A stretch of DNA of 23,948 nucleotides from Ruminococcaceae bacterium UBA5396 (GTDB taxonomy: Bacteria > Bacillota > Clostridia > Oscillospirales > Acutalibacteraceae): the NCBI GenBank assembly GCA_002410715.1, contig DHOG01000158.1, positions 34,218-58,165 on the forward strand, in the 5' to 3' direction. Positions 3,178 through 21,106 of the stretch are shown one piece after another. The notes beneath the pieces are model-generated. The model searched no databases. It was not told the origin of the DNA and saw only the letters and a list, made by a program, of their open reading frames with translations. The position numbers were made by a program, and so were the translations under genes. How positions within the stretch are numbered: the stretch's first letter is position 1; each line of letters opens with the position of its first letter.

Positions 3178-6024
3178 TTATTGAAACATCCGGAGCGTTA
3201 CGATCTTATGCGCCGCAATATCAACTTTGAAGTGCCCGTCTTCCAGCCCGACGTCACGTATCTTAACTGTTTCATCTAGCCTTAATTCTTCTATTCCTCT
3301 GATATTAAGCCGCGTCTTCGCATGAACAGACAGGTCATCATCGCTGTTGTTCCATAGTCTGACAATAATGCCATCCCCGTTTTCCGCCTGCTTGATACCC
3401 GATACCATGACCTTGTTTTCACAGTTAAGTTCGAGGAAGCTGCCGGTCGATGGGAGCGAAGCATCCATCGTCACGCCCTGAATTGCCTTTATATCCACCT
3501 TGTAATCATTGGCGGCGCTCATGACGTCACCCTCACTCCAGCTTCCCGTATGAGGATAAACAGCGTAGTTGTATTCAAAGCTACCGAAAGATTGCAAGCC
3601 GGTGTATTTGTCGTATTCCTCGGGAATCATATCAGGATTTGCGGTCATGTAAGCACGGTGCGTTCTCAAAAGCGTAAGCTTAACGGTGCGTTCGACATCG
3701 TCACATACCTCATACTCACGAAGCCCCTTATTCAGAAATGCGATTCCGTGTTTACCGTCCGAAAGATCGATAAAATTCTGCATAGGCTGGAATGGAACAT
3801 ACGGATCAAAATTGTCACCGACATCACGCCAGTTGATGTTGCGCTTCACAACGTCCCAGATGCTGTCTACCATGACGTCGTCCGTCCTGATTCCGGTCGG
3901 GAAATTGACCGTCAGCTTATGATCGCGGCACTCGTTATTAAGCCTCGTCCTGATCTTTACAAATTTTGAATCCTTCTCGAGCGTAATAAAATATGTGATT
4001 TTTAAATTCTTTGTTTCTCTCAGTCTGTCTTTACCATCAAGTGTAGCAGCCGCAGGTATAGTCATAGATAGCTCAACCTTGAATGCGCCGCGCAGCAGAT
4101 TGGCTTCCGTCATTGTAATTACAGCTTCGCAGCCGATTGACGTCACCGCGAAATCCCGTTTCGGCTTTGTGCTGATATGGGCACTTCCGGTTTCCCCATT
4201 ATCCGCGAAATAATGCATGTTATCCACCGCGTGTCCGGTCGTTTTATCCAGAAGATTGAACGTCCCGTTAGGGTTTAGCGTAACCTTCACAAATTCATTT
4301 TCAAGAATTCCGCTGTCTCTCGCGATTAGCTTTCTGTCTTCCATAAGCTGCGGATGGTATTTAAAATCGGGTTCACGGAAGCGAAGCGCGACGGATACAT
4401 ACCCCATCGCAGGGATTTCCGCCTTCAGCAGGATACGCCTGCGGTTAGCCTGGAATTTAATCGCCTTGGTATCCAGCTCCCGCTCCACTCCGATTTTGAT
4501 ATCCTCGCTCGAAAGCTCGGTATATTCCAGTTTGTTACCATCTTTGTCGACGATATCATAAAATACGTCGCAGCTCGCGGCTCCGTCGACTCCAATATCC
4601 GCTTTTTTGCCTCCACCCGACTTGGGAAGGTCAATGACAAGCGGAATAATGCCAGCCCGTTTGAACGGCAGCGTGTTGAACAGGGTGATGATATGATCCG
4701 TATCGCGGAAATCCTTTGCGGTATTGATATTCCTATAAAGAGCAATAGCACTTCTCGCCGTAACCTCTTCCGCAACCGTATTGGCCAGCGAGAAGTTATA
4801 CATCATATCCTCATGTGCAAGATCCACCGCGGCGCCGCATATGCTGTCATGGGCATGATTTTTCAGAAGCGCCTGCCACGCGCGCTCAAAATTTGCGCGC
4901 GGATATTCTTTGCCGAATACTGAGGCAAACGAGGCAAGCGGTTCGGCAATACCGATCAGATTGGTTTCGACCTTGTCGTTATATAACTTAATCTTAATTC
5001 TGGAAGAATGCGTGGCTCCAAGTAGCGCGTTAAAATTATCATATTCGACTGTCGTATACCGCAGTTCACCCTTGTGTCTTGCCAGATCAGATTCCTCCAC
5101 CTGACTGCGGATGGTATCCATGTAGTTATCCAGAGAGTCCTGAATAATTTCTACCCCTTCTGATACCGCGTTCATTTCATTAATCAACTGCGGCAGATAC
5201 CTGTAAGGCTCGTCGTTATCCTCCATATTTAACGCCAGAAGATTGCCCGCGATGCTGTAAGGCTCTGATTGCCTGACAATTGCGTCCAGGCCCTTTTTCA
5301 GCACGTCTTTGTCGTGATTGAAATCAAAATCTTCCTTAAGCAGGACAAAAGCTTTTTCATATAATCCCATATCAGCCATATGAACCGGCTTTTCAGCTTT
5401 ATCGTATGTATAGGAAAGGTCCTTGGGCGGCTTGCCCAGAACAACCGTATTGTGGACGTAAAAGAACCAGTTCGTTCTTGTTACCTCGTCGAAAGTCCGA
5501 AGGGTATGGAGCGTGGAACCATCCGCACCCTCCCAGATGAACAGCGGGGTCATTTCGTATTTATTTGTACCGCGGTAGAAGATGGCGGTATCAATTCCGA
5601 ATCCATTGTACAGCTGAGGCATTTGAGAATTCTGACCATATGCGGTGGCGGTATATCCCGATTTCATGCCGCCACCCATCTCTTTCGCCATCTTATGCCC
5701 CATCAGAAGATTGCGGACAAGCGATTCGGGCGCGACCGTATTTGTTTCGGGCAGCGTATACCAGTTGACTACCAGCATCTTTTTTTGTGATATTAATTTT
5801 TTAATGCGTTCCTTATTTTCGGGTCTGACAGATAAGTAATCCTCGATTACGATCATACCGCCGTCAACGCAAAAGCATTTATAATCCTCGCGGGTTTCCA
5901 ATATATTGATGATATTATCCATCAGATCACAAAGCCTGAGCTTTGACTGTTCAGCGGTATGCCTCCATTCTCGATCCCAGTGTGTACCACTGATCACATG
6001 CATTGTCATTTTCTTTTTTTTCAT
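3178..6024 (-). CDS. Glycoside hydrolase family 38 (alpha-mannosidase-type) homologue, nucleophile position altered
   Basis: The 948-residue protein has the GH38 plan. An N-terminal catalytic barrel opens with GTHWDREW at residues 13-20 (zinc ligands H15 and D17). A helical middle domain contains NHAHDSICG at 389-397 (zinc-ligand His region). Large beta-domains fill about 440-948. Bacterial GH38 enzymes are retaining alpha-mannosidases. The nucleophile, which is also a zinc ligand, normally sits in a PDxFG motif just before GQxxQMPQ. Here that stretch reads GYTATAYGQNSQMPQ, placing Thr127 at the Asp position. The codons were read directly (gcc acc gca tat ggt), with no frameshift. It has no signal peptide, so it is cytosolic. 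AGGAG lies 7 bases before ATG 6024. It is the first gene of the downstream group, after a 141-base gap with a possible promoter. Hand counts show higher GC than in the transport genes. It may be inactive, have a changed mechanism, or bind rather than cleave. Confidence 0.9.
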   Translation of the reverse strand: MKKKKMTMHVISGTHWDREWRHTAEQSKLRLCDLMDNIINILETREDYKCFCVDGGMIVIEDYLSVRPENKERIKKLISQKKMLVVNWYTLPETNTVAPESLVRNLLMGHKMAKEMGGGMKSGYTATAYGQNSQMPQLYNGFGIDTAIFYRGTNKYEMTPLFIWEGADGSTLHTLRTFDEVTRTNWFFYVHNTVVLGKPPKDLSYTYDKAEKPVHMADMGLYEKAFVLLKEDFDFNHDKDVLKKGLDAIVRQSEPYSIAGNLLALNMEDNDEPYRYLPQLINEMNAVSEGVEIIQDSLDNYMDTIRSQVEESDLARHKGELRYTTVEYDNFNALLGATHSSRIKIKLYNDKVETNLIGIAEPLASFASVFGKEYPRANFERAWQALLKNHAHDSICGAAVDLAHEDMMYNFSLANTVAEEVTARSAIALYRNINTAKDFRDTDHIITLFNTLPFKRAGIIPLVIDLPKSGGGKKADIGVDGAASCDVFYDIVDKDGNKLEYTELSSEDIKIGVERELDTKAIKFQANRRRILLKAEIPAMGYVSVALRFREPDFKYHPQLMEDRKLIARDSGILENEFVKVTLNPNGTFNLLDKTTGHAVDNMHYFADNGETGSAHISTKPKRDFAVTSIGCEAVITMTEANLLRGAFKVELSMTIPAAATLDGKDRLRETKNLKITYFITLEKDSKFVKIRTRLNNECRDHKLTVNFPTGIRTDDVMVDSIWDVVKRNINWRDVGDNFDPYVPFQPMQNFIDLSDGKHGIAFLNKGLREYEVCDDVERTVKLTLLRTHRAYMTANPDMIPEEYDKYTGLQSFGSFEYNYAVYPHTGSWSEGDVMSAANDYKVDIKAIQGVTMDASLPSTGSFLELNCENKVMVSGIKQAENGDGIIVRLWNNSDDDLSVHAKTRLNIRGIEELRLDETVKIRDVGLEDGHFKVDIAAHKIVTLRMFQ

Positions 6025-6165: not shown

Positions 6166-7059
6166 TCAGTTCGCAAGACCGCTATGCTCAATTCCCCGAA
6201 TGAAGCGACGATTTAGAAGTATATACATAATAATAACCGGAAGTATCGTCAGCAACGTACAGGCCATTTTAACGGCAATCGTATACTGGTCCATATATTT
6301 CTGCATGGCAATTGGTGTTTCCATAATTTCAAGATACATGGTAAGAGTCCCCTTGCTGACATCAATTAAATACATGGATGGTTCAAAGAAATCGTTCCAA
6401 TGCCAAATAAAGGACAGTATAAAAACAACGAGCAACGATGTTTGAGAAGTCGGAACAATAATTTTCCAAAAGGTTTCTAAAAATCCGCACCCATCAATTG
6501 TTGCCGCATCCTCCAAGTCGGTAGGAAGCCCCTTATAAAACTGCCTGAATATGAAAATAAATATGGCACCGTTGAGCCCCATTCCAAAGAAACAAGGAAC
6601 AATTACAGGCAAAAATGTACCTAACATATTCATTTTTGAGAAATTGATATAGCTGGGAATGATCAATGTCTGCGGCGGAACTATAACACTAAACAGCACA
6701 AGCAAAAATAATACATCCCTGAACTTAAAACGAAATCTTGCAAAACCATAGGCAATAAATGAGCATGATAAAACCTGCCCGAAAACCGCCAATATAGTTA
6801 CAATCAAACTGGTTTTTAACCGATTCCAGTAATCTAATACAAAAACTGCTGATTTAAAGTTCTGAAACGTAATGTGATGTGGAAGCCACTTTACCGTAGT
6901 ATCATACAAATCAATCGGAGATTTCAGTGAATTGGATAACATATACAAAAACGGTAACAGAAAAATAAAAGCAAATCCGACCAGCATAATATAAACAGGA
7001 AGCCTGCCGGCAGTGGATTGTATGAGATGTATCGGTTTTTGCAAATAAATTTTTTTCAT
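6166..7059 (-). CDS. Carbohydrate ABC transporter permease, MalG type (second pair)
   Basis: This is an inner-membrane permease subunit of a CUT1-type sugar importer, about 297 residues with six predicted membrane segments. The EAA loop that contacts the ATPase is at about residues 181-204 (DLEDAATIDGCGFLETFWKI). The frame stays open to a start at 7161 inside the previous gene, but the ATG at 7059 is preferred: AGAAAGGA lies 8 bases upstream and MKK followed by the first membrane segment is the usual layout. It starts 14 bases after the stop of its MalF-type partner. No solute-binding protein or ATPase gene adjoins this pair. The substrate cannot be read from the sequence, though the setting suggests an oligosaccharide. 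A 141-base gap follows, separating it from the GH38 group. Confidence 0.93.
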   Translation of the reverse strand: MKKIYLQKPIHLIQSTAGRLPVYIMLVGFAFIFLLPFLYMLSNSLKSPIDLYDTTVKWLPHHITFQNFKSAVFVLDYWNRLKTSLIVTILAVFGQVLSCSFIAYGFARFRFKFRDVLFLLVLFSVIVPPQTLIIPSYINFSKMNMLGTFLPVIVPCFFGMGLNGAIFIFIFRQFYKGLPTDLEDAATIDGCGFLETFWKIIVPTSQTSLLVVFILSFIWHWNDFFEPSMYLIDVSKGTLTMYLEIMETPIAMQKYMDQYTIAVKMACTLLTILPVIIMYILLNRRFIRGIEHSGLAN

Positions 7060-7073
7060 GCAACCCATCCTTT

Positions 7074-7943
7074 CTATTTTTCTCCTCCGTAAAATATAAG
7101 CTTTCTCATACCTGCGAATACTGTTATAACAACCACAAAAATAAATAGAAAATAAATCCAACCCATTGCGGCACCATAGGAATAATTTAGACTTTTAACG
7201 CCGTTCTGTATGATATAGCCGACAATAGGATTGCTGATATCTCTGAAAAAATCAATAAGCGTGTAAATACAATTTAACAAGACAATCGGCGATATCATCG
7301 GAAGGGTTATTTTCCAAAAAATGACCCATTCTGAAGCAGCGTCTACCCTTGCGGATTCATAGAGCGGTTCCGGAACACTTTGGAGCGCAGCCAGAAATAA
7401 AACAATCTGAATACAGGATTTCCACAGAATTACTGTAAGTTGCCCTATAAAATTCAAAATGATATCGCCTACCAGCGATCCGGTAATCTGATAAAAGGAC
7501 TCCGGTATGGTGATAATTCCGTTTGTACCGGTAATGCCCATATCCAGCAGCTGTTTTAATACAAACCCATTTCCAAGCAAAACCGGAAGAAAGAATATAC
7601 TCTTAAATATTGCTTTCCCTCTTATTTTTCCGTTAATTAAGACGGCTATAAACAGTGAAAATATCACGATCACGGGAGTCCATATAAGCGTTGAAGTAAC
7701 TGTCTTTAAGAACATTGGGAGGAAATTAATATCCACTGTAAATGCATATAAAAAATTGTTGAATCCAACAAATACTGAATCGAGTGTTGAAATATCAGTT
7801 ATTTTTGAAAAGCTCATGCTAATCGACTTAATGAAAGGATAAGCCAGAAATAAAGCAAATCCTATTATCCACGGAGAAATAAATCCCCAGCCTGCAATTG
7901 CTTTGCGTTTTTCAAGGCTGAATTTCGCGGATACTTTTTTCAT
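7074..7943 (-). CDS. Sugar ABC transporter permease, MalF type (second pair)
   Basis: This is the membrane partner of the MalG-type protein at 6166-7059. It has about 289 residues, a positively charged N-terminus, six membrane segments and an EAA loop at about 192-217 (EPLYESARVDAASEW then ITLP). The frame could start at 7967, overlapping the DUF5696 stop, but ATG 7943 has AAAGGGTG 5 bases upstream and gives the normal MKK start. It begins 4 bases after the DUF5696 stop, so the two genes are tightly, perhaps translationally, coupled. It is short and lacks the large periplasmic loop of E. coli MalF, as is normal for Gram-positive CUT1 permeases. It must pair with a solute-binding protein made elsewhere, possibly one of the two encoded upstream in this window (inference). 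Confidence 0.93.
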   Translation of the reverse strand: MKKVSAKFSLEKRKAIAGWGFISPWIIGFALFLAYPFIKSISMSFSKITDISTLDSVFVGFNNFLYAFTVDINFLPMFLKTVTSTLIWTPVIVIFSLFIAVLINGKIRGKAIFKSIFFLPVLLGNGFVLKQLLDMGITGTNGIITIPESFYQITGSLVGDIILNFIGQLTVILWKSCIQIVLFLAALQSVPEPLYESARVDAASEWVIFWKITLPMISPIVLLNCIYTLIDFFRDISNPIVGYIIQNGVKSLNYSYGAAMGWIYFLFIFVVVITVFAGMRKLIFYGGEK

Positions 7944-7947
7944 GACA

Positions 7948-10446
7948 TCACCCTTTTCTGCTAACAAAATAGGAATATGGTGAAATATTTATACTCCCAT
8001 CTGCAAAATCTGTAGATCGATAATTCACATAAACTGCCGTTCCGTCAGAATACTTAGTCTGGTATACTTTATCTGCAACTTTCTCGTGCTTCTCAATTGT
8101 ACAGTTGCAAATGCCATGAAAGATTTCTTTATACATGTTATTAGTAACCTGAATATCGTCATACCACTGATTTACCTCGGATGAAAACAGGGCATTATAT
8201 AATGTACCTTTAAGTCTAGATGAACTTTTGTAAGTCAATTTATAATAAGGCATGCTTCCATATTCGATCGCCCGAAGCTTATCGACTTTTGGATTTGCAA
8301 ACAGGTTGAATGGCTTGTCACAATATAATACATATCCATGATAGACCATTTGAATAAACGGAACGGTTTCATTTGTGAAAAAGTATCCGGTATCATATGT
8401 TGGCACTTCTCGTAAAACTGTCGAATATTTCGCCGCGTATAGGTTTGATCCGCCTATCATTACCTGGCCAAGATCCTGATTTATTTCTTTACACATATTG
8501 TTGTATATATCTATCGTATCGCCTCTTGATACAACCCTATTCTTTTTATAATTTGTGTATATTAGTGATCCGATATTATCAAGATAAAGCCCGTCTGTCC
8601 GATGAAGCCATTTGTTTTTTGGGAGTAAAAAAGCAATTAACCTGTCATATATATGCTGAGAATCCAACCAATAAGTTTTCTGAGCAGAATCACTAACAAC
8701 CAGACTGCTTTTCTGCCGCACGACATCATTTGCCAGTGAAAAACCTGATACCCCTTTTTGAGCCTCTACCGGATTGATATACAGGAACAATGGAAAGCCC
8801 TTTTGCTGTGCGGCTGACGTAAGTTTTTCTATGCCATTGATTCCTCCAAGCTTTTTACTCGGTTTGGTTGAATATGGATTCCTCATGATTCCTGTCTCAT
8901 TCCATCCAAGCAAAGCTACGTCAGGATTTGCAACTCCTCGTTTCTTTAATTCCGCAAGAATATCTTCCGCCTGAGCAAAGCTTGTCATAGAAATAAACTT
9001 GTTAAATAGAAACGACTTCTTTCGTATACCCATTAGTAGATCTAATTGCATTTTTGGATCTTTCACTTCCGCGTTCCGCTTTAACATACCGGTATCCAAT
9101 AAATGTTGACGATATGTTTTGGCCATTCCTGAATAATTCGCATTGTCTCCGGAAAGAAAGGAATATACCAGTACTCGATCACCTGAAATACGTTCTTTTT
9201 CAAGTGCCTTTAGTTTTTGAGCATTGCTGGTAGTTGTAATGTAAAAATTGCGGTAAATTAGCGTGGAATATACCGAATATAAAGGCTGCAATTGTGTCTT
9301 TGGATAATATGAAATTTTTGCATCGGCATCTCCTTTATCAATATACGCCATAAAAGCGGAACCCATGGAACGGATCCCAAACACCGGCATTCCCGCGATC
9401 TTTTTCCCTGAGATTTTATTTTGATTCACAAGATCAATGTTTTGTTCCTGCTCAGAATAAACGGAAGAATCGTAATAACCAATATAATCGGGATATGTCT
9501 CAGAAAAATAAGATATTGCACCCGGGCCATCCGGGTAGAACGCATAACCGTCTTCTTCCTCGACCGTGCTGCCGAAATAAGGCAGAATCTCGATCGACGA
9601 CACCAAACAGGTGGCACTATTTGATACAATTGTAAACTTCTCTGATATTATATTTAAATATCGTTCAATGTCTTCCCTTTCGTTTGAATAAGCATTTGTG
9701 TCCTGCAAATTTGTAAATACTATCTCTAAATTTGATCGAATATTTGAAATAGCAGTAAAAACAACGCCTTCTCCTTTAATATTATCTCTGATTTTTATGA
9801 TCTCCTGTTGACAAGCATCAAACATGAGCATAAACAGTTCATATTCCGCCTGACCAACTGAAGCAGAGTTCATTGATCCTCGAATATTGTTTAAAACCTT
9901 TTCCAGCAAATTAACATTTTTCTTGATATCGTCCAAAGCAACCCTTGATTTTTCAAGTCCATCGGAATTCTCCAGAAAAGATTTGTCCGGTATCCTTACT
10001 TTGAGAGAAGACCCTTCTATAATAAATTCGATATCTAATGAAATATTAAGTTTTGTAATTGTGATCGTATAGATAAATCCATTATCAATTATCTGGACTG
10101 ACAAGTCATATGGTAATTCCTGTAACGAAGCGCTCTCGACCTTACTGCTATTTCCACCCATATCAACATAATCGAGGGACAATAGAGATTCCATCCTTAT
10201 CTTTACAGTGTCTGCAGCACTTTCATAAACGCTTGAATCAGGATAATTTGAATACCACCATTTACCGTCATTAAGATTCTGAACCGCTATGTTTGCTTTA
10301 CTTTCGTTATAATATAAAGCTATTGAATCATTTTTTGCAGCCTCCTGAAAACCATTGGGTATATTTGTATCCGCAGCCGCTGATAACAGAGGTAAACATT
10401 CGACAAACAGCAAAAAGCCAGTAATAAAACCGATTATTTTTTTCAT
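7948..10446 (-). CDS. DUF5696 exported protein, possible TIM-barrel glycoside hydrolase
   Basis: This 832-residue protein has a signal peptide (about residues 1-25, ending LLSAAA) and no lipobox. An N-terminal beta-rich region (27-155) is interrupted by a long helical, coiled-coil-like insert (about 155-275). A second beta region follows (290-430), then an alpha/beta part (about 465-720) with barrel-like strands: LLGWNETG at 512-519, FLYINP at 554-559, TDGLYLDNIG at 617-626 and MIGGSN at 663-668. The pattern resembles TIM-barrel hydrolases in which an Asp follows a strand, and D618 and D623 are candidates. This is inference; the name DUF5696 rests on my memory of similar proteins beside sugar permeases. 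AGGAGG lies 6 bases before the ATG and overlaps the TAG of the previous gene. It sits between the Yip1-like gene and the second permease pair, so a role in handling the glycan outside the membrane is likely. Confidence 0.72.
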   Translation of the reverse strand: MKKIIGFITGFLLFVECLPLLSAAADTNIPNGFQEAAKNDSIALYYNESKANIAVQNLNDGKWWYSNYPDSSVYESAADTVKIRMESLLSLDYVDMGGNSSKVESASLQELPYDLSVQIIDNGFIYTITITKLNISLDIEFIIEGSSLKVRIPDKSFLENSDGLEKSRVALDDIKKNVNLLEKVLNNIRGSMNSASVGQAEYELFMLMFDACQQEIIKIRDNIKGEGVVFTAISNIRSNLEIVFTNLQDTNAYSNEREDIERYLNIISEKFTIVSNSATCLVSSIEILPYFGSTVEEEDGYAFYPDGPGAISYFSETYPDYIGYYDSSVYSEQEQNIDLVNQNKISGKKIAGMPVFGIRSMGSAFMAYIDKGDADAKISYYPKTQLQPLYSVYSTLIYRNFYITTTSNAQKLKALEKERISGDRVLVYSFLSGDNANYSGMAKTYRQHLLDTGMLKRNAEVKDPKMQLDLLMGIRKKSFLFNKFISMTSFAQAEDILAELKKRGVANPDVALLGWNETGIMRNPYSTKPSKKLGGINGIEKLTSAAQQKGFPLFLYINPVEAQKGVSGFSLANDVVRQKSSLVVSDSAQKTYWLDSQHIYDRLIAFLLPKNKWLHRTDGLYLDNIGSLIYTNYKKNRVVSRGDTIDIYNNMCKEINQDLGQVMIGGSNLYAAKYSTVLREVPTYDTGYFFTNETVPFIQMVYHGYVLYCDKPFNLFANPKVDKLRAIEYGSMPYYKLTYKSSSRLKGTLYNALFSSEVNQWYDDIQVTNNMYKEIFHGICNCTIEKHEKVADKVYQTKYSDGTAVYVNYRSTDFADGSINISPYSYFVSRKG

Positions 10447-10456
10447 GCTTATCCTC

Positions 10457-12550
10457 CTATGTCATCAAATTTATCTCTACAATGATGTCCTTTATGAAAC
10501 TATACATCTGAGTAATCAAAACAAAAAATATAACGGCTACAGCCCACACAAAAACCATGCCGATCAAAGTTAGAATGATTACCCCGGCGGTTCGTTTTAT
10601 GCTATATTCATTCATGGTATAAACCTCAACAAAACACATTACAATTACCCAGGTCCAAATGATTGTCCACAGAAAATAAAAAATATCCGCCTCAGAGATA
10701 CACAATATATTTGAAATTAAAACGATCATTGGGCTGAAAATTATATATGGTATCATGCAATAAAGGATCCCCAATAAACACTCCATAAGTTGCTGCTTTC
10801 CGTTCATAATTGAGGTAAGTGCATAATTCACGAAAATAAATGTCAGCAACGGCAAAAATACCTTTCCAAGTTCAAGCCAAACATTTAAATCCTCAGGCGC
10901 TTGTGTTTCCAAAGGAAAATGTGTTCCCAAACCATTAAAAAGAATGGCCGCCGCCAACGCCAAAAATATCAAAAACACCTTGAAAAGATTAATATTTTTC
11001 CTGTCACGCTTAATTAAGTTGAACGTATCAATCGGATGAAAAAGATATAATACAATTGTCTGTCCAAGCCCTTTTATTCCTAGCCTTCCAATATTTAACG
11101 CTGCTGTCAGCACATACTTATCAGCCATTTTTTTCATGCGAGTGAGAAGTATAACACTACCGGAAACCATTACAGTAATGAATAATACAATCCACCCAAA
11201 ATACTGTCTGAAAAATTCTAACCGGTAATCCTGATATGCGGTTGAATAAGAACTCTTATCATTAATCGCTTTAAAATAGTCCATTGCTTCCTGATAACTG
11301 CCTTGTTTATATAGGACCTTACCTATACCCAAATACGCCAGTGGATAATTTGCATCAATTTTTAAGGCTTCAGTCCATGGCTTAAATGCCTGATCGTATT
11401 TGCCTTCCTGATATAATTTAATTCCGTTATGCACTTCTTCAGCAAACTGTGTCCTTTTAAAAATCTGGATATTGTTTAAGGTCGAATCCAGAACAAATAT
11501 ACGACGGTTTTGATCTATCGCGATACTGACAGGAGACTTAAATTTCCCTTTCCATGAGCCTTCTCCCCCGAAGACGCCAAGCAGATTTCCCTCCGTATCA
11601 TACTGATAAAGTTTTTTTGAAACAGAATCAATAGCAGTTAAAACGCCGTAGCTGTCAACAGCAACATCAACAAAGCCTGGATAACCTTCATAAAGTTTTG
11701 TATTGCTATGCCGCTCTCCGAACAAATCTCTTTTCGGATATACATTATCGCCAGAAAAAGTGATTTTCTTCAACTGTTCCTTTTTCGACCATAAAGTAGT
11801 AACATATATCATCCCCGTATTAGATATCATAAAGTTTGAATGGTACGCGGGAACTCTTTTCGATATCTGCTCCTTCTGCTCCTCACTTGCAAACAACCGG
11901 ATAAAAGTATCTAAAAAACTGTATTCGAGTCTAGTTGGCGCTATATATCCTTTAAAGTTGTTTCTGTCATCAATGGTAATTAATCCGTGAAAATCAGTAT
12001 TGTTTAATATATAAATATACCCCAGGCTGTCAACCGCAACCTTTTTAGGCTGGAACTTTAGAGTCTTTTCATACATAGATGATTTGGGTTGGGTCAGTAT
12101 CCCCTTTGTCTCCCCCGCTCTGTCTATATGTACCACCCGCTCATTATCTGTGTCCGCTATGTAGATATCACCGTTCTCATCCGCAAAGATACCGGAAGGA
12201 TTTTTAAATTTTATTCCGGCGGCCTGATAAAAGCTGCCGGTCATATCCATGTTCTTATTAAAACGAAGCACCCGATTATGACCTGTATCAGCTACATAAA
12301 CTTCCCCTGATTTTGATACAAAAATATCTTCAGGCGATAAGAAAGTTGGAGTTGCATCATCTATATTAATAATTGCCTGTTCCATTTTATATAATGCAGG
12401 TATCGGTACTCGTTCACCATCTTGTAAAATGTAGTCGCTTTCTGGAACCAAACCGGAGAACTCTGCTGGTGCAGCATCTGCGAAAACACATAAAAGACAT
12501 GTCAACAAACAGATAAATGGAACATAAAATGCTGATTTTGTTATTCTCAT
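10457..12550 (-). CDS. NHL-repeat, TPR and Yip1-like multi-pass membrane protein
   Basis: The 697-residue protein has a signal peptide (1-27, ending ADAA). An NHL-type beta-propeller follows (about 60-370), with repeats such as GEVYVADTGHNRVLRF (82-97) and GDIYIADTDNERVV (127-140). A TPR-like helical pair lies at about 373-430 (NGIKLYQEGKYDQA, then GKVLYKQGSYQEAMDYF). One membrane segment follows near 451-470, then a Yip1-like domain with four or five further segments (about 520-690). The propeller and TPR should therefore face outside, and the Yip1-like part is in the membrane. Propellers of this kind bind ligands or proteins, so it may organise or sense at the transporter; no enzyme motif is visible. 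It starts 13 bases after the first MalG-type gene, and its stop overlaps the ribosome site of the DUF5696 gene. Domain calls are good; function is unknown. Confidence 0.8.
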   Translation of the reverse strand: MRITKSAFYVPFICLLTCLLCVFADAAPAEFSGLVPESDYILQDGERVPIPALYKMEQAIINIDDATPTFLSPEDIFVSKSGEVYVADTGHNRVLRFNKNMDMTGSFYQAAGIKFKNPSGIFADENGDIYIADTDNERVVHIDRAGETKGILTQPKSSMYEKTLKFQPKKVAVDSLGYIYILNNTDFHGLITIDDRNNFKGYIAPTRLEYSFLDTFIRLFASEEQKEQISKRVPAYHSNFMISNTGMIYVTTLWSKKEQLKKITFSGDNVYPKRDLFGERHSNTKLYEGYPGFVDVAVDSYGVLTAIDSVSKKLYQYDTEGNLLGVFGGEGSWKGKFKSPVSIAIDQNRRIFVLDSTLNNIQIFKRTQFAEEVHNGIKLYQEGKYDQAFKPWTEALKIDANYPLAYLGIGKVLYKQGSYQEAMDYFKAINDKSSYSTAYQDYRLEFFRQYFGWIVLFITVMVSGSVILLTRMKKMADKYVLTAALNIGRLGIKGLGQTIVLYLFHPIDTFNLIKRDRKNINLFKVFLIFLALAAAILFNGLGTHFPLETQAPEDLNVWLELGKVFLPLLTFIFVNYALTSIMNGKQQLMECLLGILYCMIPYIIFSPMIVLISNILCISEADIFYFLWTIIWTWVIVMCFVEVYTMNEYSIKRTAGVIILTLIGMVFVWAVAVIFFVLITQMYSFIKDIIVEINLMT

Positions 12551-12563
12551 ATTCCAACCCTCG

Positions 12564-13433
12564 TTATGATTTAATACCGGAAAAAGCCATAGTTTTTATA
12601 ACCCTTGACTGCATACTCAAATATAACATTATCACGGGTAAAGTCGTTAAAAATATAGCGGCTGCCGTGACCCCTGACCTTGTAAATGAGCCAGCAGTTC
12701 CCGCTAATGACTGTAATGCAAGCGGAAGGGTTTTCATTGACTGCCGCTGAATAAATATAAGCGGTGTAAAATAATCGTTCCAGGTTGCTACCGTGGTTAA
12801 CACCACCAGAGTCGCCCAAGCCGGTTTAACCATAGGCATGATAATTGAACCAAAAATCCTCCATTCTCCAGCCCCGTCTATCCGTGATGCTTCAAGAATC
12901 GTATCCGGTATCTGCTCCATGTATTGTTTCATAAGAAATATGCTGTATGCGGTAGCGATTTTAGGGATGATCAATGAGCTGAACTGGTTTATCATTCCGA
13001 GACTATTGACTACCATGTAATTAGGTATTTGTGTTACCTGAGGTGAAAACATCAGGGCTGCTATTATTAATGTAAATATCAGATTTTTGCCCTTAATATT
13101 CAGCTTCGTCAATGCATATGCACCGGTACTGGCAACAAAAACTGTACCTAAAATGGTTGAAACAGTTGAAAAAAGACTGTTAAACAGATATCTTGAAAAA
13201 GGAACGACAGAACTGTCCATTGAAGAAAAAAGATCTCTAATGTTTTTTGATGTCGGATTTTGCACAAAAAATTTGGGAGGATATAAAAACAACTCGTTAA
13301 ACGGTTTGAACGCTGTACTAACCATATAAATTAATGGTAGGGAAGTAAAACACACAAGTAAAATCATCAATATGTAAACTGTGATCCAGCCTGCCGAAAG
13401 GTTTCTGATCCTCCGCCTAAAATTGTATTCCAT
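12564..13433 (-). CDS. Carbohydrate ABC transporter permease, MalG type (first pair)
   Basis: This CUT1 permease subunit has about 289 residues, six membrane segments and an EAA loop at about 179-203 (ILEASRIDGAGEWRIFGSII). The frame remains open up to 13595 inside the preceding gene. ATG 13433 is the likely start: AAGGGGGG lies 7 bases upstream and the protein then begins MEYNFRRRIRN just before the first membrane segment. It lies 13 bases after the stop of the MalF-type partner, with the ribosome site overlapping that stop. The order of SBP fusion, MalF, MalG implies that it imports the ligand of the 969-residue binding protein (inference). No nucleotide-binding subunit is encoded nearby. 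Confidence 0.94.
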   Translation of the reverse strand: MEYNFRRRIRNLSAGWITVYILMILLVCFTSLPLIYMVSTAFKPFNELFLYPPKFFVQNPTSKNIRDLFSSMDSSVVPFSRYLFNSLFSTVSTILGTVFVASTGAYALTKLNIKGKNLIFTLIIAALMFSPQVTQIPNYMVVNSLGMINQFSSLIIPKIATAYSIFLMKQYMEQIPDTILEASRIDGAGEWRIFGSIIMPMVKPAWATLVVLTTVATWNDYFTPLIFIQRQSMKTLPLALQSLAGTAGSFTRSGVTAAAIFLTTLPVIMLYLSMQSRVIKTMAFSGIKS

Positions 13434-13446
13434 ATCGTTACCCCCC

Positions 13447-14343
13447 TTAATCTTTAGACGACAGGAGCCGTGTACAAATTCTGCCGAGGCCGAAGGTAAT
13501 GACAAAGAGAACAACCGAAACAGCAGCAGAATAGCCCATATCAAACCGGATGAATGCATAATCATACAAATGGGTAACAATTGTATGGCCGGCATAGCCC
13601 GGACTTGGCAGAGGTGCTACGGCAACAGCAACGTCAAACACGGCAAATGATCCTACTATGGAATTGATCGCGCCAAAAAGTAGCTGAGGTTTCATAAGGG
13701 GAAGTGTTATGTAAAACAATTCCTGAAAAATATTATTTATGCCATCAATTCTTCCAGACTCAAACTGCTCGGTCGGCAGGTTCTGGAATCCCGCCAAAAA
13801 AACCAGAAATCCCGTTCCCATACTCATCCAGATAGAAATAATTATGATAACCGGTAATATCGTTCTTGTATCCATTGTCCAGGCTATCGGCTCAGACAGT
13901 ATTCCAATCCGAAGCAGTGTATAGTTTATCAATCCGTAATGATCACTAGCAAAAAAGTAGAGCCATACAACAGATAAAGCAATGCCGCTTGTAATAGACG
14001 GTGCGTAAAATGCTAATGAAAATGCATTTCGAAATTTCAGCTGATCAATGAGCCATGCCATAATAAATGAGGCGAAAAAGCCCACAGGACCGGTTATTAC
14101 GGCAAATGTAAAAGTATTCTTTAATGCTATAAAAAACACATCGTCTTCTAAAAAAAGCTTTTTGAAATTATCGAATCCAATGAAATCAAACGTGGAAATC
14201 AAGTCATAATCCGTAAAACTCAAAAAAACTGCTGCTAAAACAGGAATGATTGTAAAAATAAAAAACAGTACAAGGAAAGGTAAAATAAAAGATAGAGGAA
14301 TGACAGTTTTATTCCAAAAATGTTTCCACACCTGCTGCTTCAA
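13447..14343 (-). CDS. Sugar ABC transporter permease, MalF type (first pair), TTG start
   Basis: This 298-residue integral membrane protein has six predicted segments and an EAA loop at about 193-218 (EQFESGRIDGINNIFQELF, then YITLPL), typical of the larger CUT1 permease subunit. The best start is TTG at 14343, giving MKQQVWKHFW. AGGGGGA lies about 7 bases upstream and no ATG is suitably placed before the first membrane segment. It follows the stop of the solute-binding fusion by 24 bases and is followed by its MalG-type partner. The TTG start may lower its output relative to the binding protein. Family is certain; substrate is unknown. Confidence 0.92.
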   Translation of the reverse strand: MKQQVWKHFWNKTVIPLSFILPFLVLFFIFTIIPVLAAVFLSFTDYDLISTFDFIGFDNFKKLFLEDDVFFIALKNTFTFAVITGPVGFFASFIMAWLIDQLKFRNAFSLAFYAPSITSGIALSVVWLYFFASDHYGLINYTLLRIGILSEPIAWTMDTRTILPVIIIISIWMSMGTGFLVFLAGFQNLPTEQFESGRIDGINNIFQELFYITLPLMKPQLLFGAINSIVGSFAVFDVAVAVAPLPSPGYAGHTIVTHLYDYAFIRFDMGYSAAVSVVLFVITFGLGRICTRLLSSKD

Positions 14344-14367
14344 AACCAGTTCCCCCTAAATCATTAC

Positions 14368-17277
14368 TCAGGACAAATACTGCCGCTGTTTACTTCGCAT
14401 TTCTGCGTTAATGTCTTTTATTGCCTTTTCAAGCGAGTCTCTGGGGTTAATCTTATTCATGACTATTCTGTTCCAGGCATTATTCATATGTCGGCTGGTA
14501 AAATAACCGCCTAAAACTGTGGGCATATCTTTGTAGTATGAATATTGCTTTTTTATTACCTCAAGGTCTTTGCTGTCCCACGGCATCAATTGAAAAGCTT
14601 CATAATTAGCAGTAGCCCATCGCGCAGACACTCCGAAGTATGATTCGACAGTATAGCCGTATTGTACCTGAGTATCCCTGGACATCCACCATTTCATAAA
14701 CTTCCAGGCTTCCTGTTTATGTTTGGACTGTTCCATAATCAGAATTCCGGTAACTCCCCCGCCCGCAGTACGATCTATCGTATTATCTTTTTTTCTTGTA
14801 CCGATCATTGGTGCAATCGCATATCTGCCCTGAAGTTCAGGAGCTGCAACACTTAATTGCGTGTATAAATTGAAGTCTGATATACCAATTGGCATTTCCC
14901 CGCTTCGGAACCTGTTGAAAAAATTTGCCGCCATCGGCATTTTATATACGCTGTAAAGCTCGGTCCACTTAATAAACGCGGAATATGCTTCATCTGAATC
15001 AAGCGTACACGTCAAACCATCTTCTTTGTAATAACTTCCGTCGTTCTGATACAAAATTGGAGTAAAACTTTGAATAACCGGCATGTAATAAAAATTCATA
15101 TTATTTTGCCTGAGACGCGGAAGGACAACAGTACATAATTCTTCCCATGTATCCGGGGGGGAAATTCCCAGTTTCTTTAATATATCCGTTCTATAAAACT
15201 GAACCATAAAGCTCATTGTCTCAGGAAGAGCGTAAATACGATTATTATATTGAAACGGAATATTCACATTTGGCACGAAGAATTTTTCTATTTCTTTATA
15301 ATCACTAAATTGAGTCAAATCTGCCGTAGCGCCACGAATGCCAAATTCAACCGGTAAACCTGACTCCACTCCGCAAGCTACATCCGGTGCAGTTCCGGAT
15401 GCATTAGCCAGCATCAAAGTATTCAACCCGCCTACGTTTAATTGTCCGGCTGGTACGATATTATACCGAACTCCAATTCCTGTTTTGGATGTAAAGCTGT
15501 CGTCAGTAAGCTCTTTCATAAGTTCTACCCATTCTTTTCCTCGTGCGACCCATACATCAATTACTTTTTCAATTTTCATATCAGAAGCTACTGTTTTATT
15601 TACACTGTCATAATCCTCATAAAATGACTTAATAAAATTTTGAATAAATTTTTCGATTCTCTGCCATATGCTGGATTTTCCATTTTCAATGGTCTGGTCT
15701 TCCGGAGCGAAAACAATATAATCCAACATAAGCGGTGAGGATCTTAGAATGGTGATCCAATCTCCAATTGCCATTTGTAAATTATTGATGTCATTTAACT
15801 TACGAGGAATTAAATAGGGGTCATTTATCATCTCTTCAATTTGTGTCTTAAGTATTAGGAGGTTATTAAGAATGGATGGTTTATAACTCGAAAATGATTT
15901 AATTTGTTCGATCTGGCTCGGAATTCTGTCGCCGATATCCTTCAGTTGTTTGATAATTTGCGGTGCATTTTTCCCAATTTCATAGTCAAAATTCAAATCA
16001 GGGTTATTACCGGTTATTAGAATAATATTTTGAATGATTTCAGAAAGGGCAAATGCGTCCAATTCCAAATTGTTTACCATTTCTGTAACAGGGCCCAAAA
16101 CGCTGGTCATCGATAAAGTATGCTCCCCCTCTCTCAGGTAAAGAAGATATGGAACCCCTTTTTCATTACTGAGTTCTTCCATCTGCCAGCCGTTCTGATA
16201 TTTAAACTCATAAGCATTCCATTCTTGAAATGGAACCTGATCGTCTATACGAATTTGTCTATATATTGACAGACCGTCATTATAATTTTGAAGGGAACGC
16301 ATATATAATTTATATAACCCTGTCTGTGTTACTTTAAATTTCCATGAAATAGTATGTCCTAAACTGCTCCAGTTTGATCCACCAATCACATTTAAAACAC
16401 GGTTATCACGTGAAGACGGTACCGTAGCCGGATCCTCATCATACCCCATTTGTATATTGGAAGCAGTTCTAACGGTTTTATCTTCTGCCTGAATACGGAT
16501 CTCAATGTTTGCATTTTTATAATCTTTTTGATTATACTCCTTCTGCAATTCATTATAGGATTTATATGTTACAGGAGAGGTAAGCTCAAGCTTCTGAATT
16601 GCTAAATCACCCCTTACGTACTCAAATCTGACAGTATGGCTTCCCTTTACAAAAAACAAACGCAACGGTTCTGTATACAGACGGCTTGCATCATATAGAT
16701 ATCGATTCTGCCAAACCTTGATTTCTTCAATTTTAGGGCGTATTTCATCCCCGTTATATTTCTCCCGGATCATTCCGTTATCGGTCCATAATCTATAGAA
16801 ATTGATACCCGTTGCTTCCTTGAAAGGTAAGTTACCATCAATCAGCAGCGTACGTTTCGGTGTATCAACAGAATTTTCAATTGTTATATATTCCACATTT
16901 AAATTATAAAAACCGGATTGTGGAACAGTTATTGTCCATTCTATAAATGATTCATTCTTTTCCCAAATCAAAACGGGTTTCTCAGCATTCTCATATGCAG
17001 CGCGGATATCCGGTTTCCCATCGAATGACGTTATGGCTTCGGTGCCGAATTGAATTATCAGATCAGAAGTGTCTTTGGCTCCCTTTTGTTCGCAATCTTT
17101 GATATAATTAATATAACTTCCCTCATTCGGACTTTCAAAAAAATACGAATCATTATCTGTTTGCTCTATTGAATCTGTCTGAACCTCATCATCTGCCGAT
17201 ACCGGATATAAAATGAAAATACAGGTTAAAAGCAAAGCTATAGTTTTTTTCAAAACGGATTTGTCATAGAGCTTCAA
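14368..17277 (-). CDS. Exported solute-binding protein fused to two N-terminal carbohydrate-binding-like domains
   Basis: This 969-residue protein has a signal peptide (about 1-28, FILYPVSA) and no lipobox cysteine. Two related beta-sandwich-like domains occupy about 50-235 and 255-410. Each ends in a similar strand pair (GSHTVRFEYV at 212-221; GEHTLSMTSV at 384-393), as in carbohydrate-binding modules. A helical linker covers about 410-555. A family 1 extracellular solute-binding protein fills about 565-950 (GTAPDVACG, then PETMSFMVQFYRTDILKKLG, a typical hinge segment). Ordinary binding proteins have about 400-550 residues. The start is TTG at 17277 with AAAGGCGG 8 bases upstream; no in-frame ATG would keep the signal peptide. 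A permease pair follows directly, so it probably delivers a large glycan ligand to it. How it stays at the surface without a lipid anchor is unclear; the added domains may hold it to cell wall or substrate. Confidence 0.87.
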   Translation of the reverse strand: MKLYDKSVLKKTIALLLTCIFILYPVSADDEVQTDSIEQTDNDSYFFESPNEGSYINYIKDCEQKGAKDTSDLIIQFGTEAITSFDGKPDIRAAYENAEKPVLIWEKNESFIEWTITVPQSGFYNLNVEYITIENSVDTPKRTLLIDGNLPFKEATGINFYRLWTDNGMIREKYNGDEIRPKIEEIKVWQNRYLYDASRLYTEPLRLFFVKGSHTVRFEYVRGDLAIQKLELTSPVTYKSYNELQKEYNQKDYKNANIEIRIQAEDKTVRTASNIQMGYDEDPATVPSSRDNRVLNVIGGSNWSSLGHTISWKFKVTQTGLYKLYMRSLQNYNDGLSIYRQIRIDDQVPFQEWNAYEFKYQNGWQMEELSNEKGVPYLLYLREGEHTLSMTSVLGPVTEMVNNLELDAFALSEIIQNIILITGNNPDLNFDYEIGKNAPQIIKQLKDIGDRIPSQIEQIKSFSSYKPSILNNLLILKTQIEEMINDPYLIPRKLNDINNLQMAIGDWITILRSSPLMLDYIVFAPEDQTIENGKSSIWQRIEKFIQNFIKSFYEDYDSVNKTVASDMKIEKVIDVWVARGKEWVELMKELTDDSFTSKTGIGVRYNIVPAGQLNVGGLNTLMLANASGTAPDVACGVESGLPVEFGIRGATADLTQFSDYKEIEKFFVPNVNIPFQYNNRIYALPETMSFMVQFYRTDILKKLGISPPDTWEELCTVVLPRLRQNNMNFYYMPVIQSFTPILYQNDGSYYKEDGLTCTLDSDEAYSAFIKWTELYSVYKMPMAANFFNRFRSGEMPIGISDFNLYTQLSVAAPELQGRYAIAPMIGTRKKDNTIDRTAGGGVTGILIMEQSKHKQEAWKFMKWWMSRDTQVQYGYTVESYFGVSARWATANYEAFQLMPWDSKDLEVIKKQYSYYKDMPTVLGGYFTSRHMNNAWNRIVMNKINPRDSLEKAIKDINAEMRSKQRQYLS

Positions 17278-17304
17278 TTCTAATTCCGCCTTTCTAAATA
17301 GAAC

Positions 17305-17343
17305 GCCGCGCTGAATGTTGCGTTCAGCGCGGCATGCGCTGAA
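17305..17343 (-). promoter_or_regulatory. Intercistronic stem-loop with two alternative pairings
   Basis: GCCGCGCTGAA (17305-17315) pairs perfectly with TTCAGCGCGGC (17323-17333), an 11-bp GC-rich stem with a 7-base loop. The inner element TTCAGCGC (17323-17330) can instead pair with GCGCTGAA (17336-17343), an 8-bp stem with a 5-base loop. The two stems exclude each other. The element lies between the GxGYxYP lipoprotein stop and the TTG start of the binding-protein fusion. No U-tract follows, so an mRNA stabiliser, processing site or switch is likelier than a terminator. Confidence 0.6.
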
Positions 17344-17349
17344 TATCAG

Positions 17350-19512
17350 TTATCTACCCACTAGCTCAACCTTTTCCAGTATGAGTGCTTCTGATTTTCC
17401 ACTCATTCCGTTATCGTAATCCACCGTTACCGTAATGCTTTTTCCTGCCAATTTTTTTACATTCGCATAAACACCCTGATATGATCTCGTAAACCTTGTC
17501 CAATTTGCAATCACTGTCTCGTTATTCCCATCCTTGATTCGAATCCGATAGCAACCGCCCGCCTGCGCGTCAGGAGCATGGAAATTAAAAATCATATATT
17601 CACTGCTGTTTGGTATCCTGAAATTGTAGGATGCAGATGCTTTTACCTGCCCGTCACTGAATCCGCCGTCACCGCGGAATACAATGCCGCTGCCGCTGCC
17701 CCATGCTGCTTTACCGCTAATCTTCCAGTTGTTTGTACCTTTGCGGAAATCCCATTCCGTCGGCTTGATATTGTCCTTCATAAGATGAAACATCTCATCG
17801 GGAGTCACTACCTCAACGTTTGACGGCAGTGACTTTATGATTCGGCTAACACTGTTTAATCCCTCAGCCCAAAGGTTTACAAAAATTAAAGTATAGCCGG
17901 CCGCAATTGTTGGGTCTTTCACCGACGATTCTTTCAGATATTTAATATAGCTGTTTTCTTCAGCCGTTGCTTTCGAACCGGCTTCCCAAAGCGTAAAGCG
18001 CGGTGCTACAACCGGTTTCCCGTTACTAAACCGAACCAATCCGTCAATTGATTTGTTAAAACCGTAGTTTTCATATATGATACCATCGCAATTTGGCTGC
18101 TTTGTATATGTCTCCCAAAGATAACCGTCAAAATAACTGTTGTGATCCAATATCTGCACCAAACGCATTCCGGTGCGCTCCAAATAATAATTTAGAGTTG
18201 CAGCCTGATATTTTAACTCATCCAATGGCATTCTGCTCGGATAAAAATAACCCATTCCGGAAGCCGAACATGCAAACGAATTCATACCGGCGTTATCGTA
18301 ATAATATTTTAGACTAAACGGCGCCAAATCTATCAGGGCCGGTGGAATACCCCAGCTGACCTTCATACTTTTACGGTCTGGCTGTTTCCAAAGCTTGGGC
18401 GAAGTATACATCGCATTCAGTACCACCTGCACATTATCTCCATCCGATACCTGAAACGCCACATAATGTTTACTGGAATCCGCTTTAATTCCACCCGCAT
18501 TTTTTTGGGGTTGCGTTTCCTGCAAATGATAGCCGCAGAACACACTTAGATTACTGGATAAACCGTCAGCAATCAAATACACTCCATTATCAGAGTAATT
18601 GTTGACAAATTCCTGTTCGCCCTTGGAATAATCTCCATATCCGATTGCTCGGGCATGTTTATCCATAGCTTTTAACAGTTTATCATGAAGAGCGGTGTTG
18701 CCGTATATAACAAAAGCTTTGCTTAGGGCCGCATAATCCCTGAGTTCATAGCTGTTCTTGGGATCTATTTCCACAACAATCTTATGGCTCAGGCTTTTCC
18801 AATAATTATCGAACAGCCATTGAAGGTTTTTCCCGCGTACATCCAGCTTCATTGTCAGTCCGAGTGATTTTGCTTTGGATTCCAATGACGGCGTTACGAC
18901 AAGGCATCCGAGAAGTCCCCCCAGTGAATTTGCGACATTCGTAGATTCACTTCCAGTACCATCGTATAAAATATAACCCTTTAATAAACTCTTAAACTGC
19001 CCTATTGTATTCCAGATATCACTCGAGGCTGTAAAGGATACATCATAATTATCTTTCAGATACTTTAAATACGTTGCGTAGTGTGAGTCAGAAAAATATA
19101 TTTGGGTCGAACTGCTCTGCGCAACATAACCCTGAAGCACAGCCATCATGATTTTCTCATCTTTTGTCATACTGTTCGAGGAATGACATATAAGCTTATC
19201 TGCTTTTACTGATTTTGTCATTACGGGATCCTGACTAATCTTTATAATCTTTTCCGGCGGTGCGGACGGTTCTGTTTTAACAGTTGATGACTCGGTTTTG
19301 AATGTTGTGTCCGATGATCGGCCTGCCGTTGTATTGGTCACTTGAATAGAGCCCTTTGTATTTGTTGCAGATTTGCTCTCTTTCATTGTTCCTGTAGTAA
19401 AACCTGTATTTTGATCAGAAGAATCCATTTGAGTGCTTTTACATCCGGTTATACCGTATATTGAAATCAGAATTGCACCAGATAGCGCAACCAACCGCCA
19501 AGCGAGCTTCAT
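17350..19512 (-). CDS. GxGYxYP-family lipoprotein with C-terminal beta-domain
   Basis: The protein has 720 residues from ATG 19512. A TTG two codons upstream is possible, but AAAGGAG lies 7 bases before the ATG. The signal peptide ends in the lipobox ITGC with Cys24, so it should be anchored to the outer face of the membrane. A Ser/Thr-rich linker runs to about 90. The GxGYxYP N-terminal part (about 100-300) includes VLQGYV and IYFSD, and the C-terminal part (about 345-590) includes VSDGDN at 355-360 and the signature GMGYFYP at 419-425. Residues 590-720 form an extra beta-rich domain with no counterpart in the cytosolic homologue at 576-2147; it resembles a carbohydrate-binding module, which is inference. 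It sits between two solute-binding protein genes, with hairpins in both flanking gaps. It is probably a surface glycan hydrolase of unknown specificity. Confidence 0.85.
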   Translation of the reverse strand: MKLAWRLVALSGAILISIYGITGCKSTQMDSSDQNTGFTTGTMKESKSATNTKGSIQVTNTTAGRSSDTTFKTESSTVKTEPSAPPEKIIKISQDPVMTKSVKADKLICHSSNSMTKDEKIMMAVLQGYVAQSSSTQIYFSDSHYATYLKYLKDNYDVSFTASSDIWNTIGQFKSLLKGYILYDGTGSESTNVANSLGGLLGCLVVTPSLESKAKSLGLTMKLDVRGKNLQWLFDNYWKSLSHKIVVEIDPKNSYELRDYAALSKAFVIYGNTALHDKLLKAMDKHARAIGYGDYSKGEQEFVNNYSDNGVYLIADGLSSNLSVFCGYHLQETQPQKNAGGIKADSSKHYVAFQVSDGDNVQVVLNAMYTSPKLWKQPDRKSMKVSWGIPPALIDLAPFSLKYYYDNAGMNSFACSASGMGYFYPSRMPLDELKYQAATLNYYLERTGMRLVQILDHNSYFDGYLWETYTKQPNCDGIIYENYGFNKSIDGLVRFSNGKPVVAPRFTLWEAGSKATAEENSYIKYLKESSVKDPTIAAGYTLIFVNLWAEGLNSVSRIIKSLPSNVEVVTPDEMFHLMKDNIKPTEWDFRKGTNNWKISGKAAWGSGSGIVFRGDGGFSDGQVKASASYNFRIPNSSEYMIFNFHAPDAQAGGCYRIRIKDGNNETVIANWTRFTRSYQGVYANVKKLAGKSITVTVDYDNGMSGKSEALILEKVELVGR

Positions 19513-19536
19513 CTGCAAACTCCTTTCAAAGGGCGA

Positions 19537-21050: not shown

Positions 21051-21106
21051 TTTGGGACACGCCCCTTCCATAGCAGAAATAACTTGTGTTCATAAATCGC
21101 GTTACC

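Follow-up and report, generated by a model that had tools for sequence, protein, structure and literature searches.

We describe a seven-gene transport cassette, A-F1-G1-Y-D-F2-G2, in a 23,948-nucleotide stretch of contig DHOG01000158.1 (positions 34,218 to 58,165), hereafter the window, of the draft genome of Ruminococcaceae bacterium UBA5396 (GCA_002410715.1; 3.16 Mb, 210 contigs, 73% complete). The system is real, widely conserved and unnamed in the open-licence literature that we searched, where no description was found of the cassette, of DUF5696 or PF18952, or of Yip1 proteins with ATP-binding cassette (ABC) transporters and NHL domains. We read the cassette, with a probability of roughly 0.55, as a tandem importer: two linked type I sugar importers, with D, a DUF5696 protein, as a mostly non-catalytic receptor. 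The computed evidence comprises gene order, co-occurrence, separability, correlated divergence, the fold of a D relative, loss of catalytic positions, EAA loops and a single ATPase gene. A-F1-G1 is referred to as module 1 and Y-D-F2-G2 as module 2; L numbers denote loci and G numbers the genomes of a 398-genome phylum sample, and “own” marks the UBA5396 copies.

The window genes with recognised domains all lie on the minus strand, and the cassette runs from 17277 down to 6166. Its coordinates and domains agree with the order given in an earlier note made from the sequence alone, namely binding-protein fusion, MalF, MalG, NHL/TPR/Yip1 protein, DUF5696 protein, MalF and MalG with gaps of 4-24 bases. 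The gaps are 24, 13, 13, 10, 4 and 5-14 bases in order, and this range holds with the internal ATG starts that were chosen by eye for G1, F2 and G2. Module 1 comprises A (14368-17277, 969 amino acids), the MalF/UgpA-type permease F1 (13447-14343) and the MalG/UgpE-type permease G1 (12564-13433, longest open reading frame to 13595). Module 2 comprises Y (10457-12550), D (7948-10446), the MalF-type permease F2 (7074-7943, longest frame to 7967) and the MalG-type permease G2 (6166-7068, longest frame to 7161). Both permease pairs lie in one apparent operon. None of the 13 hairpins listed for the window falls in the gaps among the seven genes, and a terminator-like hairpin of 13 pairs (17303-17335, minus strand) is located just upstream of A, the scan as a whole finding 13 hairpins against 11.5 expected by chance. 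The promoter scan of the window was at chance level (50 found, 50.4 expected).

The seven-gene order is conserved far beyond chance. The own genome holds 13 DUF5696 matches at 12 loci, ten of which, the window included, are full copies; outside the window the full order is present at nine of 11 loci, and the incomplete ones are L009, cut by a contig start, and L019, where a shortened D has no F2-G2 after it. The ten copies have diverged too far to be recent duplicates, with a median identity of 22% for D and 44% for F1, and in a midpoint-rooted D+F2+G2 tree (72 loci) they meet only at the root. As side observations, the truncated D of L019 (9508-12869, contig C34) is followed by other genes, and D of the full copy L018 (9016-11509) lies in two overlapping frames, owing to a frameshift or an assembly error. 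Among the best 80 of at least 571 GTDB stretches encoding relatives of one Paenibacillus D, the full set in order was found at all 76 evaluable named loci, four (L081, L095, L113, L114) being cut by contig ends. These 80 include Paenibacillus, Cohnella, Lederbergia, Amphibacillus and others, together with metagenome bins labelled Oscillospiraceae, Clostridiaceae, Lachnoclostridium, Acetatifactor and Mahella; the Paenibacillus carriers include P. pabuli (L054) and P. xylanexedens (L071). The same order occurs under NCBI names on the Butyrivibrio fibrisolvens plasmid pNP243 and on a Paenibacillus cellulosilyticus plasmid. Altogether 118 full loci were collected, with A present in them.

Since the named loci are biased, being the best matches to one Paenibacillus D, the fair sample is that of the 398 phylum genomes, which were drawn evenly. 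A D match at 1e-3 was obtained in 46 of them, a strong one (E < 1e-140) in 37. The remaining nine have weak matches only, and the four that were read belong to other families: DUF6259 (L168, L170), true GH129 (L169) and a 482-residue protein taken for GH13 by eye (L171). F2 (> 290 bits) occurs in exactly the 37 genomes that have strong D, Y likewise, apart from a further fragment at a contig end in G243, and F1 (> 300 bits) in these 37 and in G007, G054, G093, G127, G080 and G154, with a contig-end fragment of 231 bits in G104. At the best D locus of each of these genomes other than the own one, Y-D-F2-G2 is contiguous in 36 of 36 cases. D, Y and F2 are thus a dedicated set. The conserved neighbourhood and the dedicated assembly that the earlier note had proposed are borne out by the ten own copies, the 76 named and 36 sampled loci, the shared 37 genomes and the apparent operon; the loss of order in other genomes that the note had named as its refutation was not seen. 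We give very little credence to two unrelated importers having met by chance in one operon, with Y and D tied to neither of them; the modules are separable, as such a reading would have it, but the co-occurrence in 37 genomes and the unbroken contiguity strongly disfavour it.

The note had also taken the cassette for one importer rather than two transporters, and in this it was not upheld, as A-F1-G1 is found before, after or apart from Y-D-F2-G2. In the 36 sampled loci module 1 lies directly before Y in 23, including one with an interrupted G1 and one with A cut by a contig start, directly after G2 in five (G342, G331, G385, G205, G180) and not adjoining module 2 in six (G062, G135, G165, G082, G040, G240), where on three contigs that end within a few kilobases (L139, L144, L157) “separated” means not adjacent; two loci are cut by contig ends (G266, G394). 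The two parts of an interrupted G1 lie about 1.6 kb apart in L151 (3861-6720, G152). L147 (G394) was rejected as a separated module 2, its Y being cut by the contig end and the matching remainder of the cassette ending the contig of L189. Module 1 stands apart from module 2 in L173 (G062), L177 (G040) and L180 (G165); the same genomes also carry full cassettes (L172 and L174 in G062, L181 in G165), that of G040 (L176) being cut after D. The six separated loci show module 2 to be a unit in itself. The position of the Yip1-like and DUF5696 proteins between two permease pairs, as the note had described it, stands, but they go with the second pair and do not lie between equals. All separated copies in the tree belong to a single clade of 11 members (support 1.0), the others being the contig-cut L147, two full loci and two loci of reversed order, and separation is therefore probably derived.

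Among the ten own full copies the distances of all 21 gene pairs are correlated (r 0.64-0.86, p 0.001, the floor of the permutation test). The values are 0.81 for F1-G1 and 0.80 for F2-G2, against 0.64 for F1-G2 and for G1-G2, 0.68 for F1-F2 and 0.69 for G1-F2; with 79 representatives all r lie at 0.85-0.93 in the same ranking. This fits F1G1 and F2G2 heterodimers diverging together, and the correlated divergence of the modules suggests that they share a task. A single physical supercomplex, in which Y bridges both permease pairs and substrate or energy coupling is shared, would be in keeping with the conserved order, with the co-divergence and with the absence of module 2 from any sampled genome lacking F1 (37 of 37 have both). 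We consider it distinctly unlikely, since the modules lie apart in several loci, separated module 2 mostly has its own binding protein, and the correlation is stronger within F1-G1 and F2-G2 than for the crossed pairs. Two importers that are linked yet separable fit the data better than one four-permease machine.

The permeases carry the marks of type I carbohydrate ABC importers. Pfam BPD_transp_1, the family of the permease pairs of this class, was matched by G1, F2 and G2; F1 of the window gave no Pfam match at 1e-3 and matched the UgpA NCBIfam model below cut-off, and its homologue in L014 matches PF00528. In 92 loci each permease scores at least 287 bits with its own family model and at most 138 with the next, and the F1 family in these loci at least 418 and at most 91 bits, respectively. 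The EAA loop, the ATPase-docking loop of this class, is present in all four permeases, with the loop Gly kept in 97-100% of F1, G1, F2 and G2 from the 79 representatives as assessed by counting alignment columns; window F2 has Ala at a loop position where 97% have Gly. In the DNA available around them, no MalK-type gene above 250 bits lies within 5 kb of any of the 118 full loci. The assembled part of the own genome has a single MalK/UgpC-type gene, on another contig, and a partial gene table of the P. cellulosilyticus plasmid has one ugpC directly before A. Multitask ATPases shared among type I sugar importers are known (PMC7658222), so that the lack of an operon ATPase does not exclude membership of this class. 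One ATPase shared by both pairs is the simple reading. In four other loci (L183, 5339-10714; L184, L185, L186), from four genomes of one family (G007, G054, G093 and G127), relatives of F1-G1 precede an adjacent pair of MalK-type ATPases that differ from each other, and small carbohydrate-binding-like proteins are encoded close by. Profile searches gave no strong D, Y or F2 match in these four genomes, and the arrangement is possibly a heterodimeric-ATPase sister system.

An extracellular binding protein, as expected of the importer class, is represented by Pfam family in A and in S2, a free-standing solute-binding protein upstream of the cassette (19578-21071, minus strand). A has an N-terminal hydrophobic stretch, a weak carbohydrate-binding-like (Golvesin_C) region in its N-terminal part and SBP_bac_8/SBP_bac_1 at residues 583-881, the solute-binding domain lying within the last 390 residues. 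After dereplication of the full loci, 43 of 63 have an extra binding protein directly beside the cassette, either ahead of A or beyond G2, and such a protein adjoins four of the six separated module 2 loci (four of seven when the contig-cut L147 is counted, five of seven within 5 kb). None was found within 5 kb of separated module 1 in three loci. A profile, S, was built from six binding proteins of separated module 2 loci. Its median scores are 127 bits for proteins upstream of A (n=71, mostly Paenibacillus relatives and not dereplicated), 104 downstream of G2 (n=26), 32 for distant binding proteins (n=30) and -1 for the binding domain of A (n=118), with overlapping ranges for the upstream, downstream and distant sets (up to 151, 207 and 204 bits, respectively); the comparison is partly circular, as four of the seven seeds of the candidate search came from separated module 2 loci. 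On these scores, module 2 seems to prefer one binding-protein subfamily, S, to which most of the extra binding proteins beside it belong outside the own genome.

Window D matches DUF5696 (PF18952) at 2.6e-147, has a hydrophobic N-terminus and is probably anchored in the membrane outside the cell. The model of a Paenibacillus relative (predicted local distance difference test 84.8), has a GH129-type fold over the whole ectodomain, and D also has a detectable sequence relation to GH129. At 1e-3 neither window D nor L021 D matches PF11308 (GH129), both matching PF18952 only; a PF11308 profile search gave no match in the own genome and 199 phylum genomes, the control genomes likewise being without match. 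At the position of the catalytic Asp (NagBb Asp435/ZgGH129 Asp486, end of strand 4; window 623), as mapped by model and eye, 6 of 71 sequences are acidic and 40 have Arg. The position aligned with Glu517 is acidic in 18 of 71, and both are acidic in one, or in 12 if 624 is counted in place of 623. The catalytic positions of GH129 thus appear mostly lost from the family. In the hhalign comparison of the D profile with a true GH129 (L169) the C-terminal half aligned well and strand 4 did not, hence the strand-4 mapping rests on model secondary structure (L021 strand 645-648, then Arg649); Glu517/531 was mapped by a HMMER alignment of L169 to 5opq and carried to the D family by eye. The true GH129 of L169 (7417-10032, G325; PF11308 4e-31) also matches the DUF5696 C-terminus, an intermediate that could root the DUF5696 family. 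In addition, the DUF6259 proteins of L168 (8633-10768) and L170 (9301-11289) match DUF5696 weakly over the barrel and, by eye, have Asp directly after the apparent strand 4, so that DUF6259 may be an active glycosidase family.

Y carries NHL, TPR and Yip1 matches in Pfam, the last at 28.7 bits against a cut-off of 28.6. Its model (80.9 on the same measure) consists of an N-terminal helix, a beta-propeller whose best PDB matches are NHL domains, TPR helices, a long membrane helix and a helical membrane domain. Most of the full named loci (62 of 76) have Y split into two genes, NHL-TPR (about 488 amino acids) and Yip1 (about 206). The Yip1-family protein YknW serves an ABC pump as an accessory and influences the state of YknX, its partner (PMC4338810). 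From this precedent and the fixed place beside D, we infer for Y the role of keeping module 2 together.

Physical complexes, surface location, glycan hand-over and a shared substrate are likewise inferred in what follows. Two complete type I sugar importers would be made, and would evolve, as one unit. Module 1 would consist of A and F1G1, with A joining its binding domain to carbohydrate-binding-like domains at the surface, and module 2 of F2G2 with Y and D as its dedicated partners, joined in many relatives by S as a free binding protein. The membrane-anchored D, with its predicted GH129 fold, most likely grips glycan ends outside the membrane and would hand oligosaccharides to S and F2G2, which Y, through its propeller/TPR ectodomain and Yip1 membrane domain, would hold together with D or gate. 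A shared MalK/UgpC-type ATPase encoded elsewhere would drive both pairs, and the two modules may import different pieces of the same glycan, released by neighbouring hydrolases.

The hydrolases vary while the cassette core stays constant. The wider window cluster includes a GH38 family protein (3178-6024, minus strand; a mannosylglycerate hydrolase model matched below cut-off), the end of a GH127-family protein, a laminin-G protein and the second binding protein; the cassette is flanked by two GxGYxYP putative glycoside hydrolases assigned by Pfam (576-2147 and, beyond the hairpin upstream of A, 17350-19518, both on the minus strand). Among 58 neighbours of own copies, window included, the families listed (25 of 49) include GH38, GH130, GH36/melibiase, GH113, GH123, GH30, GH4, DUF2961, CBM4/9 and F5/8C, and six of the 58 are SBP_bac_1 binding proteins. 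In other genomes 93 of 125 neighbouring proteins were scanned, and among the families listed (25 of 93) are SBP_bac_1, with 21 proteins, GH42, GH10, GH28, GH3, pectate lyase, GH32 and LacI-type regulators.

Several observations weigh against two linked sugar importers with a mostly non-catalytic D. Window D is itself one of the six sequences with an acid at the catalytic position (Asp623), 46 of 71 have an acid one position later, at 624, and other acidic columns are conserved (window 632 D in 60, 692 D in 60 and 728 E in 68 of 71), so that another catalytic scheme is open to D. Since 52 of 71 have an acid at either 623 or 624, the GH129-type fold spans the whole ectodomain and hydrolases are common neighbours, D could represent a new family of active surface glycosidases, trimming the substrate at the mouth of the second importer, all else being as proposed above; given the Arg that prevails at the Asp435/Asp486 position and the scarcity of acids at the Glu517 position and of both together, even allowing for 624, this seems unlikely. 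As the own genome is 73% complete, it may encode more ATPases. Genes inherited together in one operon would show correlated divergence in any case. Only three of the ten full copies of the own genome are directly adjoined by an extra binding protein (six have one within 5 kb), own adjacent binding proteins score 82 (L009, the cut copy), 36, 29, 2 and nothing with the S profile, and window S2, tried as the module 2 binding protein, is unsupported at -2.3 bits. Finally, M42, M20 and M28 peptidases are among the neighbours in other genomes, and the cassette of the P. cellulosilyticus plasmid (L193, NZ_CP054609.1) has several LLM-class flavin oxidoreductases and binding proteins downstream, thus the substrate need not always be a glycan.

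In the usual description of sugar import in Bacillota, a single binding protein serves a single permease pair, driven by an ATPase that is shared (PMC7658222). Those type I carbohydrate ABC importers that rely on a multitask ATPase (MsmX/MsmK, MalEFG/UgpABCE type) resemble the cassette in their MalF/MalG-type pairs with EAA loops, in a binding protein and in an ATPase from elsewhere (PMC7658222). The cassette differs from them in two distinct permease families, the extra binding protein of many loci and the partners Y and D. The GH129 glycosidases NagBb and ZgGH129/DagB resemble D in fold and detectable sequence relation, whereas D lies in a transporter operon, has a hydrophobic N-terminus, does not conserve the catalytic Asp position and lacks a PF11308 match at 1e-3; the authors of the ZgGH129/DagB work reportedly propose a separate family. 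YknWXYZ of Bacillus likewise encodes a Yip1-family membrane protein with an ABC transporter (PMC4338810). In contrast to the cassette, it is a MacB-like efflux pump with a membrane fusion protein; the general Pfam scan of window proteins, with no dedicated search, matched neither a membrane fusion protein nor a MacB-type permease. YknW is not known to have a propeller or TPR ectodomain. The idea behind Gram-positive polysaccharide utilisation loci (gpPUL) and SusCD is an importer with changing hydrolases in many copies per genome, and the cassette is alike in this; the constant core here is the seven-gene cassette. SusC/SusD are not expected here because there is no outer membrane, and the same general scan, again with no search aimed at the pair, gave no Pfam match to them.

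Whether the cassette amounts to a new Gram-positive glycan uptake machine, with a non-catalytic glycosidase-fold receptor, a Yip1 propeller coupler and two locked importers on a shared ATPase, a counterpart of SusCD in Bacillota whose copies exchange their hydrolases, is a tentative and rather doubtful proposition. What the cassette offers is a core of seven genes that stays constant and combines two permease families with two partners still uncharacterised, module 2 being present in about one in ten genomes of the phylum sample (37 of 398). If the reading of two linked importers is true, it would give a first function for DUF5696 and for a bacterial Yip1 family, show a glycosidase fold put to new use in transport, and provide a marker by which glycan loci could be found and their substrates guessed.

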